From contig NZ_LPXO01000001.1 in assembly GCF_001482405.1 (NCBI RefSeq), positions 434,001 through 498,000 on the forward strand: a DNA stretch of 64,000 nt, given 5' to 3'. The stretch's first letter is position 1, and the number at the start of each line of letters is the position of its first letter. The translations under genes and the position numbers were made by a program. Positions 35,697 through 59,029 of the stretch are shown here, piece by piece. This DNA is from Pseudoponticoccus marisrubri (GTDB lineage: Bacteria; Pseudomonadota; Alphaproteobacteria; Rhodobacterales; Rhodobacteraceae). The notes under the pieces are model-generated. The model was not told where the DNA came from. It saw nothing but the letters and a program-made list of their open reading frames with translations, and ran no database searches.

Positions 35697-35724
35697 AAAG
35701 AAAAGGGCCGGCGAACCGGCCCTT
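35697..35724 (-). terminator. groESL terminator
   Basis: AAGGGCCGG pairs with CCGGCCCTT around CGAA; on the minus strand the stem is followed by TTTTCTTTTG. It starts about 25 bp after the groEL stop. Confidence 0.88.
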
Positions 35725-35750
35725 TCCCGAAAGTCGTTGCGCGGGGGCGC

Positions 35751-53128: not shown

Positions 53129-54328
53129 ATGTCCATGTTTGCCGTTTTGTCCTCTGTCCGCAAGGTCTTGCGCCCCGCTGCGCTGATCGGCGCCATGGCA
53201 CTCACCGCCGCCTGCGACCCGGTCGCGCTGCCCGGGCTGGGCGGCGGCCAGGCCGGCCGGGGCGGTCCCCAGATCGACCCGGCCCAGCCGGTGCAGGTGG
53301 CGCTGCTGGTGCCGCAATCCGACCAGGGTGCCGCCCCGGTGGCGCAATCGCTGGAAAACGCCGTGCGGCTAGCCATCTCGGAGCAGTCCTCGGCACGGAT
53401 CGACCTGCGGGTCTACGACACGGCCGGCGTCGCCTCGACCGCCGCGGCGCGTGCCCAGCAGGCGGTGGATGAGGGCGCCAAGATCATCCTCGGCCCACTG
53501 TTTGGCGAGAATGCCAACGCGGTCGGGCTGGCCGTTGCGGATGAGGGCGTGAACGTGCTCAGCTTCTCGAACAACCCCTCGATCGCGGGCGGCAATGTCT
53601 TCGTGCTGGGCCCGACCTTCAACAACACCGCCGACCGGCTGATGCGCTATGCCCGCCAGCAGGGCAAGCGCAACGTGGTCATCGTGCATTCGCGCGACGT
53701 GCCCGGCCAGTTCGGCAAGACCGCCATCGAACAGGCCGCCGCGGCCAACAATATCCAGATCACCTCGGCCGAGGGCTATGACCTGTCGGTCGAGGGCGTG
53801 ACCGCTACCGCCCGCGCCGCCGCCGCCGCGATCCAGACCGGCGCGGCCGACAGCGTCTTCATCACCACCGACGCCACCAACGCGGCCATGCCCATGCTGC
53901 TGAACCTGCTGCCGCAGAACGGTGTCGCGCCGGGCCAGGTGCAGTTCATCGGCCTGACCCGCTGGGACGTGCGCCCCGACCTGTTCGACCTGCCCGGCGC
54001 GCAGGGCGCCTGGTTCGCGCTGCCCGACAAGGCCCGCCAGGACGCCTTTGCCGGGCGCTACCGGTCGACCTTCGGCGATGCGCCGCACCCGCTGGCGAGC
54101 CTCGGCTATGACGGGATCGCCGCGATCGCGCTGCTGGCCGGGCGGGGCCGCGCGGATGCGCTGACGGGCCGCGCGCTCACCTCGGCTAGCTTTACCGGCA
54201 CGGGCGGTGTATTCCGCCTGATGAGTGATGGCACGAACGAACGGGCGCTCGCCATCGCCTCGGTGACGAACAATCAGATGGTGATCCTTGACCCTGCCCC
54301 CAGCCGTCTCTCCGGCCCCGGCCTCTAG
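53129..54328 (+). CDS. LpoA/LppC-like penicillin-binding-protein activator, lipoprotein
   Basis: Lipoprotein of 399 aa: the signal ends LTAAC with Cys29, the lipidation site. The rest is a type I periplasmic-binding fold (VQVALLVPQSDQGAAPVAQS, AKIILGPLFGENANAVGLAV, VLSFSNNPSIAGGNVFVLG and LASLGYDGIAAIALLAG). LpoA activates PBP1A in gammaproteobacteria; the alphaproteobacterial counterpart probably acts in cell-wall synthesis too. It sits between rsmI and glnD. The ATG at 53129 has GGGAG upstream. Confidence 0.9.
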   Translation: MSMFAVLSSVRKVLRPAALIGAMALTAACDPVALPGLGGGQAGRGGPQIDPAQPVQVALLVPQSDQGAAPVAQSLENAVRLAISEQSSARIDLRVYDTAGVASTAAARAQQAVDEGAKIILGPLFGENANAVGLAVADEGVNVLSFSNNPSIAGGNVFVLGPTFNNTADRLMRYARQQGKRNVVIVHSRDVPGQFGKTAIEQAAAANNIQITSAEGYDLSVEGVTATARAAAAAIQTGAADSVFITTDATNAAMPMLLNLLPQNGVAPGQVQFIGLTRWDVRPDLFDLPGAQGAWFALPDKARQDAFAGRYRSTFGDAPHPLASLGYDGIAAIALLAGRGRADALTGRALTSASFTGTGGVFRLMSDGTNERALAIASVTNNQMVILDPAPSRLSGPGL

Positions 54329-57089
54329 GCCGGCGCCCAACACGGTCCCCGACGACCTGATCGCGCCCGCCTCGGACATCTGCGACGTCTCGGCCCTGCG
54401 GGCCACGCTCTTCGCGGCGATCGCGCCCGAGATGGCCGAGGCAGAGCTGCGCCGCGAGGCGGTGCGCCTGCTCTCCGAGGCCCGCAAGGCGGGCTTCGCG
54501 GTCATCTCCGAGGCCTTCACGGCCGAGCCCTTCGGCGCGCGGCGCACCACGCGCTCCTACAGCTGGCTGACCGACTGCATCGTCTCGCTGGCCTACGAGA
54601 TCGCCACGCAGCACCTGCACCCGCTGCCCAACCCGACCGAATCCGAGCGCCTCTCGGTGCTCTCGGTCGGGGGCTACGGGCGGGGCGAGATGGCGCCCTA
54701 TTCCGATGTCGACCTGCTGTTCCTGACCCCCTACAAGATCACGCCCTGGGCCGAGAGCGTCATCGAATCGATGCTCTACATCCTGTGGGACCTGAAGCTG
54801 AAGGTGGGGCATTCCTCGCGCACGGTGAAGGATTGCATCCGGCTGGGCGGCGAGGATTTCACCATCCGCACCGCCATGCTGGAGAACCGCTTCATCATCG
54901 GCGACGAGCTGCTGGCGCAGGAGCTGGACGAGACGCTGTGGTCGCAGCTCTTCAAGGGTTCCGAGCGCGCCTTCGTCGAGGCCAAGCTGGAGGAGCGCGA
55001 CCGACGCCACGACAAGCAGGGCCAGCGTTACATGGTCGAGCCCAACATCAAGGAGGGCAAGGGCGGGCTGCGCGACCTGCAATCGCTGTTCTGGATCATC
55101 AAATACGTACACCATACCGACGACGTGTCCGAGCTGGTGCGCCAGGGCATCTTCAGCCCGGAGGAATACGAGACCTTCGTGCAGGCCGAGCGCTTTCTCT
55201 GGGCGGTGCGCTGCCATATCCACCTCGTCTCGGGCCGTGCGGTCGAGCAGCTGACCTTCGACATGCAGGTCGAGGTGGCCGCGCGCATGGGCTACAATGA
55301 CCGTGGCGGTCGGCGCGCGGTGGAATGGTTCATGCAGGACTATTTCCGCCACGCCACCTCGGTGGGCGACCTGACGCGCATCCTGCTGACCTCGCTCGAG
55401 GCCGACCATACCAAGAGCGCCCCGCTGCTGGCGCGCATCTTCCAGCGCCAGCCCAAGGTGAAATCCGGCTACTCGGTGGTGAACAACCGGCTGGCCATCG
55501 CCGATGACGAGGCCTTCCTGTCGGACAAGCTGAACCTGCTGCGTCTCTACGAGGAAGCGCTGCGCACCGGGCTGCTGATCCATCCCGACGCCATGCGGCT
55601 GGTCACCGCCAACCTGCACCTGATCGACGATGCCATGCGCCGCGATCCCGAGGCGCAGCGGATCTTCCTGGACCTGCTGCTGAAACACGGCAATCCCGAC
55701 CGCGCGCTGCGCCGGATGAACGAGCTGGGCGTGCTGTCCGCCTTCATCCCGGAATTCGCCCCCATCGTGGCGATGATGCAGTTCAACATGTATCACCACT
55801 ACACGGTAGACGAACACACGATCCAGTGCCTGTGGCATCTCTCCGAGATCGAGAACGGACAGCTGACCGAGGAACTGCCGGTCGCCTCGACCATCCTCAA
55901 GGAGGGGGTGAACCGCCGAGTGCTCTACGTGGCGTTGCTGCTGCATGACATCGGCAAGGGCCGCGACGAGGACCATTCCGTGCTGGGCGCCAAGATCGCC
56001 CGCAAGGTGGCGCCGCGGCTGGGGCTGAACAAGTCCGAATGCCAGACCGTCGAATGGCTGGTGCGCTACCACCTGCTGATGTCGGACATGGCCCAGAAAC
56101 GCGACATTGCCGATCCGCGCACGGTGCGCGACTTCGCCAAGGCGGTACAGACGCGCGAGCGGCTGGACCTGCTCTGCGTGCTGACGGTCTGCGACATCCG
56201 CGGCGTGGGCCCCGGCGTGTGGAACAACTGGAAGGCGGCGCTGATCCGCGCGCTCTACCGCCAGACAAGGCGCGGGCTGGAACAGGGCATGGAGGCGCTC
56301 AACCGCGAGAACCGCGGCACCGAGGCGCGAAAGGCGCTGCGCGCCGCGCTGTCGGACTGGGAGGGCAAGGATTTGCGCCGCGAGACGCAGCGCCATTACC
56401 CGCCCTATTGGCAGGGGCTGCATGTCACCGCCCACGTGGTCTTTGCCAACCTGCTGCGCGGCATCGACGATGACGAGATCCGCATCGACATCCATCCCGA
56501 CGAGGATCGCGACGCCACCCGCGTCTGCTTTGCGCTGCAGGATCATCCCGGCATCTTCTCGCGGCTGGCCGGGGCGCTGGCGCTGGCGGGGGCCAACGTG
56601 GTCGACGCGCGCACCTTCACCACCAAGGACGGCTACGCCACTGCCGCCTTCTGGATCCAGGACCCCGACGGGCACCCCTACGAGGACACTCGCATCCCGC
56701 GGCTGCGCGACATGATCCGCAAGACGCTGATGGGCGAAGTCGTGGCCCGCGAGGCGATCCGGCCGAAGGACAAGCTGAAGAAGCGCGAGAAAGCGTTCCG
56801 GGTGCCGACCTCGATCACCTTCGACAATGACGGCTCCGAGATCTTCACCATCATCGAGGTGGACACCCGCGACCGGCCCGGCCTGCTCTACGACCTGACG
56901 CGGACGCTGGCCGACCAGAACATCTACATCGCCTCGGCCGTGATCGCGACCTATGGCGAGCAGGTGGTCGACACGTTCTACGTCAAGGACATGTTCGGGC
57001 TGAAGCTGCATTCCAAGGTCAAGCGCGACATGATCGAACGCAAGCTGCGCGCCGCGATCACCGCGGGCACCGAACGGGCCAACAGCTAG
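54288..57089 (+). CDS. glnD: PII uridylyltransferase/uridylyl-removing enzyme
   Basis: GlnD (933 aa) senses glutamine and modifies the PII signal proteins. Domain order: nucleotidyltransferase with GGYGRGEMAPYSDVDLLFL (about residue 128), a uridylyltransferase helical part, an HD hydrolase domain (LLLHDIGKGRDEDHSVLGA), and two C-terminal ACT domains (DHPGIFSRLAGALALAGANV and DTRDRPGLLYDLTRTLADQN). I use a TTG start at 54288, overlapping the previous gene by 41 bp; no better codon lies before the conserved region. The stop at 57089 is followed by an unusual palindrome array. Confidence 0.96.
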   Translation: MTLPPAVSPAPASRPAPNTVPDDLIAPASDICDVSALRATLFAAIAPEMAEAELRREAVRLLSEARKAGFAVISEAFTAEPFGARRTTRSYSWLTDCIVSLAYEIATQHLHPLPNPTESERLSVLSVGGYGRGEMAPYSDVDLLFLTPYKITPWAESVIESMLYILWDLKLKVGHSSRTVKDCIRLGGEDFTIRTAMLENRFIIGDELLAQELDETLWSQLFKGSERAFVEAKLEERDRRHDKQGQRYMVEPNIKEGKGGLRDLQSLFWIIKYVHHTDDVSELVRQGIFSPEEYETFVQAERFLWAVRCHIHLVSGRAVEQLTFDMQVEVAARMGYNDRGGRRAVEWFMQDYFRHATSVGDLTRILLTSLEADHTKSAPLLARIFQRQPKVKSGYSVVNNRLAIADDEAFLSDKLNLLRLYEEALRTGLLIHPDAMRLVTANLHLIDDAMRRDPEAQRIFLDLLLKHGNPDRALRRMNELGVLSAFIPEFAPIVAMMQFNMYHHYTVDEHTIQCLWHLSEIENGQLTEELPVASTILKEGVNRRVLYVALLLHDIGKGRDEDHSVLGAKIARKVAPRLGLNKSECQTVEWLVRYHLLMSDMAQKRDIADPRTVRDFAKAVQTRERLDLLCVLTVCDIRGVGPGVWNNWKAALIRALYRQTRRGLEQGMEALNRENRGTEARKALRAALSDWEGKDLRRETQRHYPPYWQGLHVTAHVVFANLLRGIDDDEIRIDIHPDEDRDATRVCFALQDHPGIFSRLAGALALAGANVVDARTFTTKDGYATAAFWIQDPDGHPYEDTRIPRLRDMIRKTLMGEVVAREAIRPKDKLKKREKAFRVPTSITFDNDGSEIFTIIEVDTRDRPGLLYDLTRTLADQNIYIASAVIATYGEQVVDTFYVKDMFGLKLHSKVKRDMIERKLRAAITAGTERANS

Positions 57090-57111: not shown

Positions 57112-57208
57112 GGAAGGCCCTTCGAAGGGCCTTCCGGGAACGCGTTTGCAAACGCGTTCCTGAAGCGGTTTCCAAACCGCTTCCTGCAATCCGCTTCGAA
57201 GCGGATTG
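57112..57208. repeat. array of four palindromes at 25-bp pitch between glnD and murJ
   Basis: Four short palindromes start at 57112, 57137, 57162 and 57187. Arms are GGAAGGCCCTTC (57112-57135, perfect), GGAACGCGTTTG (57137-57160, perfect), GAAGCGGTTT (57162-57183, two-base centre CC) and CAATCCGCTTC (57187-57208, perfect). The sequences differ but the layout (two to four purine-rich bases, GC block, TT/AA centre) is the same. They could form hairpins in RNA or be protein-binding sites. Confidence 0.9.
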
Positions 57209-57475: not shown

Positions 57476-59029
57476 ATGAAACCGATCAAGCTGATCTCGG
57501 GCGTGATGACCGTCGGGTTCTGGACGCTCATGAGCCGCGTGCTCGGCGTCGCGCGCGAAGTGGTGATCCTCGCACTGATCGGGCCCGGCCCGGTGCTCGA
57601 CGCGTTCGTCGCCGCCTTCCGCCTGCCCAACATGTTCCGCCGTTTCTTTGCCGAGGGCGCGTTCAACGCCGCCTTCGTGCCGATGTTCTCGAAGAAATAC
57701 GAGGGCGCAGAGGATCCGCTGGGCTTTGCCCGCGACGCGCTGTCGGGGCTGGCCTTCGTGCTGCTGATCCTGACCGGGCTCGCGCTGGTCTTCATGCCCG
57801 CACTGGTCTGGGCCAGCGCCGGCGGGTTCGCGGGCGATGCGCGCTTCGACCTGACCGTGGGCTATGGCCGCATCGTCTTTCCCTACATCCTGCTGATCTC
57901 GCTGGCCGCGCTGTTCTCGGGCGCGCTGAACGCCACGGGCCATTTCGCCGCCGCCGCCGCCGCGCCGGTGCTGCTCAACATCTTCGTTCTGGCCGGCATG
58001 GCGCTGGGGTCCGTTGTCGGGGGCGAGATCATCCTGTGGCTGGTCTGGACCGTGCCGCTGGCCGGGGCGGCGCAGCTGGCGCTGGTCTGGGTCGCGGCCG
58101 GGCGCGCGGGCATCCGCGTGCGCCCCGGACGGCCGCGCTGGACGCCTGACATGGCCCGGCTGGTGCGCATCGCGGTGCCGGCCGCGCTGGCCGGCGGGGT
58201 CATGCAGATCAACCTGCTGGTCGGCCAGCAGGTCGCCTCGCATTTCGACAAGGCGGTAGGCTGGCTCTACGCGGCCGACCGGCTCTACCAGCTGCCGCTG
58301 GGCGTGGTCGGCATCGCGGTGGGCATCGTGCTGCTGCCCGACCTGTCGCGGCGGCTGAAGGCCGAGGATCACGCGGGCGGCCGCGCCGCCTTTTCCCGCG
58401 CGGGCGAGCTGAGCCTTGCGCTGACCATCCCCTCGGCCGTGGCGCTGGTGGTCATCCCGCTGCCCATGGTCTCGGTCCTGTTCGAGCGGGGCGCCACCGG
58501 GGCCTCGGACAGCGCCGCCATTGCGCTTGCGGTGGCGATCTACGGGCTGGGCCTGCCCGCCTTCGTGCTGCAGAAGGTGCTGCAGCCGCTCTACTTCGCG
58601 CGCGAGGACACGCGCACCCCCTTCCGCTACGCGCTCTGGGCGATGGCCGTGAATGCCGCGCTGGCCATCGGGCTGGCGCCGCTGATCGGCTGGATCGCAC
58701 CCGCCATCGCCACCACCGCCGCCGGCTGGTCCATGGTCTGGCAGCTGGCGCGCGGCGCCCGCGGCATGGGCGAGGTCGCCCGGTTCGACGACCGGTTCCG
58801 CGCCCGGATCTGGCGCATCTGCGCCGCCTCGGCGGCGATGGGCGCGGTGCTCTGGGGCGCGCAGAGCCTGCTGATGCCCTGGCTCATGGCCGATTACTGG
58901 CGCTACGCCGCGCTTGCGCTTCTGATCGGCATCGGCATCATCGCCTACGGGATCGCCGGCCAGGGGATCGGCGCCTTCTCGATGACCGAACTGCGCGGCG
59001 CATTCCGACGGGGGCCGAGGGACACATGA
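57476..59029 (+). CDS. murJ: lipid II flippase MurJ
   Basis: MOP-superfamily flippase (517 aa, about fourteen helices) that moves lipid II across the inner membrane for peptidoglycan synthesis. Markers: GFWTLMSRVLGVAREVVILA, AAFRLPNMFRRFFAEGAFNA, AFVPMFSKKYE and AADRLYQLPLGVVGIAVGIV. The ATG at 57476 begins MKPIKLISGVMTVGF as in homologues. Its stop overlaps the phospholipase D-like start (ATGA), so they are coupled. GGGCAGG precedes the start. Confidence 0.96.
   Translation: MKPIKLISGVMTVGFWTLMSRVLGVAREVVILALIGPGPVLDAFVAAFRLPNMFRRFFAEGAFNAAFVPMFSKKYEGAEDPLGFARDALSGLAFVLLILTGLALVFMPALVWASAGGFAGDARFDLTVGYGRIVFPYILLISLAALFSGALNATGHFAAAAAAPVLLNIFVLAGMALGSVVGGEIILWLVWTVPLAGAAQLALVWVAAGRAGIRVRPGRPRWTPDMARLVRIAVPAALAGGVMQINLLVGQQVASHFDKAVGWLYAADRLYQLPLGVVGIAVGIVLLPDLSRRLKAEDHAGGRAAFSRAGELSLALTIPSAVALVVIPLPMVSVLFERGATGASDSAAIALAVAIYGLGLPAFVLQKVLQPLYFAREDTRTPFRYALWAMAVNAALAIGLAPLIGWIAPAIATTAAGWSMVWQLARGARGMGEVARFDDRFRARIWRICAASAAMGAVLWGAQSLLMPWLMADYWRYAALALLIGIGIIAYGIAGQGIGAFSMTELRGAFRRGPRDT

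Follow-up and report, generated by a model that had tools for sequence, protein, structure and literature searches.

Caulobacter intergenic repeats (CIR) are alphaproteobacterial intergenic repeats of around 100 bp that contain inverted repeats and were described around the GANTC sites of CcrM. For REP elements a bias towards gene 3′ ends and the gaps between convergent genes has been reported, and the G-T pairs in their stems have been stressed (PMC3733652). Adjacent hairpins that are found in related species only are also known from the double-hairpin elements (DHEs) of Allomyces and from other repetitive hairpin-forming elements in the mitochondria of fungi and sponges (PMC2800124). Hairpin-cluster terminators comprise at least two hairpins less than 15 nt apart, no further than about 80 nt from the stop codon, and do not need a U-trail (Gupta and Pal 2021, PMC8355165). 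In the open literature, mostly outside subscription journals, we found no description of palindromic repeats from Rhodobacterales or Rhodobacteraceae, though priority is not established by this.

The locus studied here lies in a 64-kb stretch of the Pseudoponticoccus marisrubri genome (the window), where a row of four palindromes is seen between glnD and murJ. Arrays of this kind resemble REP, BIME and REPIN elements in that they are short palindromes, present in many copies, extragenic, clustered in units and placed at gene 3′ ends and in convergent gaps. They differ from REPs and BIMEs in having no conserved tetranucleotide tag of the GTAG or CGTC type beside the stem, and in having several near-perfect palindromes per array at a fixed pitch where a REP has one repeated imperfect stem. 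With the mitochondrial elements they share adjacent, dispersed hairpins confined to related species, turnover between relatives and the lack of target duplication. However, they are on a bacterial chromosome, they contain two to four (mainly four) hairpins rather than a two-hairpin unit of common descent, and their pitch is conserved, their 3′-end placement strict and their pairing near-perfect. The arrays look like a bacterial counterpart of the Allomyces DHEs that would act like a REP element. The close spacing of hairpin-cluster terminators is also seen in the arrays, which have linkers of 2–6 nt and mostly lie 3–60 bp after the stop codon. While hairpin-cluster terminators are a functional class detected by folding, the arrays are dispersed copies of one homologous repeat, in which unit number, pitch and A/T positions are conserved. 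Bidirectional rho-independent terminators likewise place hairpins between convergent genes where both strands can use them, but the arrays have four hairpins, no T-tract and no G-U pairs. CIR are similar to the arrays in their host class, their intergenic location, their length of about 100 bp and their inverted repeats, but GANTC was found in none of the 37 arrays examined below.

The glnD–murJ array and its repeat family

The whole array occupies positions 57112–57208 of the window, with no strand assigned. It begins 22 bp after the end of the glnD stop codon (54288–57089, + strand; PII uridylyltransferase) and ends about 270 bp before the start of the co-directional murJ (57480–59029, + strand; lipid II flippase). 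The Pfam matches (GlnD_UR_UTase, HD and ACT for the former, MurJ for the latter) agree with the gene names in the original prediction. Of the four units, none of which is assigned a strand and which are 20–24 bp each, P1 (57112–57135, arms GGAAGGCCCTTC and GAAGGGCCTTCC) and P2 (57137–57160, arms GGAACGCGTTTG and CAAACGCGTTCC) are perfect palindromes of 24 bp, P3 (57162–57183) has 10-bp arms, GAAGCGGTTT and AAACCGCTTC, around a CC centre and P4 (57187–57208, arms CAATCCGCTTC and GAAGCGGATTG) is a perfect palindrome of 22 bp. The starts at 57112, 57137, 57162 and 57187 and the make-up of three perfect palindromes and one with a two-base centre are therefore as had been predicted. The exact 25-bp pitch that was also claimed is true of the starts but not of the symmetry axes, which are 25, 24 and 25 bp apart, so that it owes in part to where the arms end.

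Seven perfect palindromes with arms of at least 8 bp are present in the 64-kb window, and three of these are units of the array. In RNA folding each strand formed a run of four hairpins (z = −7.2 and −7.1 for the two strands), and a chance origin of the palindromes is excluded. Around the array neither a promoter-like site nor a T-tract terminator-like site was found, and it belongs to no Rfam family, with no covariance model matching above its gathering score. An ordinary bidirectional terminator-like hairpin, in contrast to the arrays, is found at 35702–35725 of the window (AAAGGGCCGGCGAACCGGCCCTTT).

A BLAST search with 116 bp against the P. marisrubri genome itself (4.56 Mb) gave about 40 further places, most of about 100 bp and with 73–88% identity. 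Forty places were retrieved, of which 37 contain four complete units and are the copies examined here. The glnD–murJ array is a member of a dispersed repeat family with a fixed layout. Across the 37 copies the three axis spacings are 23–25, 22–24 and 24–26 bp, and the distance from first to last axis is 71–74 bp. In an unbiased scan of the 750-kb contig 53 perfect palindromes had arms of ≥10 bp as against 3 in Markov-1 sequence, with neighbouring palindromes mostly spaced by 22–25 bp; the pattern AAGNNNNTTCGAANNNNCTT has 99 matches in the genome and none in the control. The units are 68–94% identical between copies, and conservation ends at the outer edges of P1 and P4, with the linkers and flanks having an identity of 0.32–0.42 where 0.27–0.35 would be expected by composition. 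As the linkers and flanks are close to random, the copies are either old or quick to change, with only the units being kept. The outer A (A10) and the two T residues beside the axis (T3 and T2) are nearly invariant in all units, and position 1 at the axis is mostly G or C. A further stem closing the array, formed between its left G-rich and right C-rich flanks, was considered and rejected, since pairing between matched flanks does not exceed that between permuted flanks (P ~0.6).

Compensatory changes in the arms

Among 1176 stem pairs (positions 3–10) there are three that are non-Watson–Crick and none that is G-U; for the near-axis loop positions there are 8 exceptions in 294. The arms themselves vary, with 6–14 distinct stems per position across the copies, and 31 of the 34 distinct stems are perfect. 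Perfect 8-bp stems are formed by 34–36 of the 36 units at each position, compared with 7–20 of 36 when the right arms are shuffled among copies, and RNAalifold applied to a MAFFT alignment gave two-sided changes in 16 of 26 pairs. These data show that the changes in the arms are compensatory. This bears out the earlier observation that the arm sequences differ while symmetry and pitch are kept, and the non-compensatory drift that had been named as the mark of a chance local feature was not seen.

The lack of G-U pairs sets the stems apart from those of REPs, which contain G-T(U) pairs and mismatches. It also distinguishes them from hairpins at ordinary convergent gene ends of the same genomes. 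With the best hairpin taken per gap, G-U was present there in 23 of 84 (Fisher P ~1e-11), a choice that makes the comparison rough. G-U is equally absent from the 21 tandem copies, in which one strand only is 3′ UTR, and covariation extends to axis position 1, where the pair is C-G or G-C despite being located in the RNA loop.

Further information comes from the imperfect units. One unit of L025 is odd-centred (AAGCGATTT-TCG-AAATCGCTT), one of L142 has a loop (AAGCGCCT-CCAC-AGGCGCTT), L145 has stems of 9–12 bp with a 3-nt loop and in L180 a 7-nt loop is enclosed (GCCCGGG-7nt-CCCGGGC). At 7 of the 11 array positions without a perfect palindrome a hairpin of at least 7 bp with an ordinary loop is still formed, as against 5.4% of random intergenic stretches (P ~4e-7); three further rows were left out of the 11 by eye as not being inside an array of this family. 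Given that most imperfect units are hairpins with ordinary loops, it is pairing that is conserved and not recognition of a dyad. Looped or odd-centred units are compatible with pairing but would not be with the two-fold dyad symmetry that a protein dimer needs. Of the three interpretations offered in the original prediction, RNA hairpins gain support from the compensatory arms and from these non-palindromic loops, and a diversified mobile palindromic element gains it from the dispersal of the copies within genomes, mostly not at orthologous positions (see below). Consecutive protein-binding sites fit poorly, because the variable positions 4–7 remain complementary and because odd-centred and looped units are tolerated.

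Placement, distribution and turnover

All 37 arrays adjoin the 3′ end of a gene, with 16 between convergent genes, 21 between tandem genes and none between divergent genes, and both array orientations occur. Unbiased scans of three genomes gave 17 convergent, 15 tandem and no divergent arrays, though some few of the 32 clusters may be members of other families, and an additional cluster was called within a gene. The same genomes have 112 convergent, 450 tandem and 217 divergent gaps of at least 60 bp, using gene calls from a simple codon-model script; P is ~3e-5 for the absence from divergent gaps and ~3e-7 for the excess in convergent ones. Most array sites have no T-tract terminator, with a few having one nearby.

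In a gapped-pattern search 88 of 395 Rhodobacteraceae genomes had a match and 23 had at least 10, the maximum being 139, and in the array-rich genomes the eight unconstrained letters of the pattern are almost always complementary. For the rest of the class there was no signal: of 385 genomes sampled from the class, none besides P. marisrubri had more than 4 matches, and in these matches the N letters are mostly non-complementary. Because secondary structure and spacing are conserved while the primary sequence turns over, BLAST finds only a handful of relatives where the gapped pattern finds 23 rich genomes. Four-unit arrays with the same layout and other arms are present in nine further genera of Rhodobacteraceae, among them that of Tropicibacter alexandrii, where the spacing is mostly 25/23/25; the genomes G002, G034, G086, G198, G237, G309, G377 and G403 contain them, and two- or three-unit arrays are found in the same genomes and in others. 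By identity of the glnD region G387 is T. alexandrii LMIT003 and G377 is Maliponia aquimaris CECT 8898. The spacing and symmetry, whose absence from relatives had been proposed as evidence against the feature, are thus present in other Rhodobacteraceae genera.

At the glnD–murJ gap itself none of 80 named relatives has an array within about 3.5 kb, and in the closest relatives the gap is rearranged or different. Five T. alexandrii arrays have both flanks in P. marisrubri, and for four of the five there is no array there. At L309 P. marisrubri has a large hairpin where T. alexandrii has the array, at L301 the T. alexandrii array is beyond a conserved ordinary terminator and at L308 both species have two-unit arrays with different arms. 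For the gap of L004, where P. marisrubri has the array, nothing comparable, and no strong hairpin, is seen in T. alexandrii or Maliponia, and two adjacent hairpins are seen in G002. From L301 and L004 it follows that an array is not simply a needed terminator, and the orthologous gaps taken together show that arrays are gained and lost at gene ends between genera. At L308 and L229:15229–15335 the AAATTTCTT unit opens the array of one genome and closes that of the other, as though an inversion had taken place.

Possible roles of the arrays

For a repeat that is located at gene 3′ ends, is constrained as a hairpin rather than as a strict dyad and turns over between genera, we favour with moderate confidence a dispersed, family-restricted extragenic element, in which a REP-like hairpin array would serve as an RNA 3′-end element and also spread in the genome. 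Two to four short hairpins in a row, in the main form four, would lie at conserved pitch directly after stop codons, often between two convergent genes, and transcription from either side would lead to the same hairpins folding at the 3′ end of the mRNA. The hairpins might mark or protect this end by aiding RNA polymerase to stop without a U-tract, by blocking 3′–5′ exonucleases or by both, in the manner of REP elements and hairpin-cluster terminators. Use of both strands would disfavour G-U pairs, template-switch repair of near-palindromes may help to maintain the perfect arms and the copies would spread within the genome by some route. We infer the function as RNA at both gene ends from the strict 3′-end placement, the convergent excess, the scarcity of ordinary terminators at array sites and the existence of hairpin clusters that act without a U-trail. 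Against this, a purely RNA-level constraint does not predict the absence of G-U from tandem copies, and a mere exonuclease block would need no four units at fixed pitch. Some process at the level of DNA is also hinted at by the tandem copies without G-U and by the covarying axis pairs, the simplest being template-switch correction of near-palindromes or a single-stranded DNA intermediate in spreading, and because of them we keep substantial weight on mobile DNA.

That the arrays are primarily a mobile DNA element is a serious alternative, if on balance a rather unlikely one. Single-stranded DNA hairpins would be recognised through their structure by some enzyme, as with REP/RAYT or the ends of IS200/IS605, and gene ends would just be harmless sites of insertion. 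The units are homogenised within genomes and different between them, which together with the patchy occurrence (at least 10 matches in only 23 of 395 genomes), the presence in one genus of arrays that are absent from the orthologous gap in others and the two orientations would suit such an element. No target-site duplications were found, however, and at E 1e-3 or 1e-2 this form had no plasmid or phage copies. An association with RAYT was rejected, as the REP-associated Y1 transposase (PF01797) is absent from 12 of 14 array-rich genomes, including those of P. marisrubri, T. alexandrii and Maliponia. The linkers are moreover saturated yet the arms still paired, which points to old copies under constraint, and most arrays adjoin a stop codon at a distance of a few to some tens of bases, which goes beyond mere avoidance of genes.

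E. coli BIMEs bind gyrase and IHF, and each palindrome could in principle be bound, as double-stranded DNA, by a dimeric nucleoid, topoisomerase or terminator protein, with four dimers at fixed pitch where transcription converges. Such binding, which we think improbable, would be in keeping with the near-invariant A10, T3 and T2 and the mostly G or C position 1 of every unit, with the avoidance of A-C as well as G-U, with the covarying axis pair and with a fixed pitch that is roughly mirror-symmetric. Independent half-sites would nevertheless not need positions 4–7 to match within a unit, units with odd centres and loops of 3, 4 and 7 nt are retained and the spacing does not correspond to full turns of the helix. 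It is less probable still that there is no selection on shape, with template switching at replication perfecting near-palindromes time after time and the arrays being a product of mutation. Perfect arms with almost no intermediates are the expected yield of quasipalindrome correction, which is documented in E. coli (PMC7202029), but this would leave unexplained the pitch common to different genera, the unit number, the conserved A/T positions, the near-random linkers between conserved units and the 3′-end location.

More speculatively, and with rather low probability, the arrays may be a genetic element of structure only. A symmetric row of hairpins, usually four, would be inherited in its number, pitch and few A/T positions with the arms left free, and would have spread through part of the Rhodobacteraceae. 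A dedicated partner (an RNA-binding protein, nuclease or transposase) would recognise the row by its shape, on either strand. The arrays provide a natural set of covarying hairpins for the study of bacterial mRNA ends without U-tracts, and they bear on how convergent genes use one common 3′ element and on whether selection or template-switch repair maintains perfect palindromes.

Other palindromes were seen alongside this family. P. marisrubri has a second, A/T-richer family, AAATTnCnTG and CAnGnAATTT about the axis, partly in two-unit arrays with a 22-bp pitch and mostly at gene ends (L193–L225; G000:C1:232895, 240015 and 425472, with singles at 104097, 170720, 194795 and 657173). A third arm family, CGGA....TCCG, forms two-unit arrays at 22 bp (L251–L270; G403:C11:330654 and 357265, with a single at 131251), and L154 has two-unit arrays within a tandem repeat of about 199 bp (G369:C8:27751, 27950 and 28148). 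In G034 (L231–L250) there are six pairs of identical 20-bp palindromes, 112–138 bp apart with unrelated GC-rich interiors (C1:28930/29042, 154114/154251, 236990/237112, 245810/245938, 327484/327622 and 337436/337549), and each of these pairs could fold with a closing stem of 20 bp.
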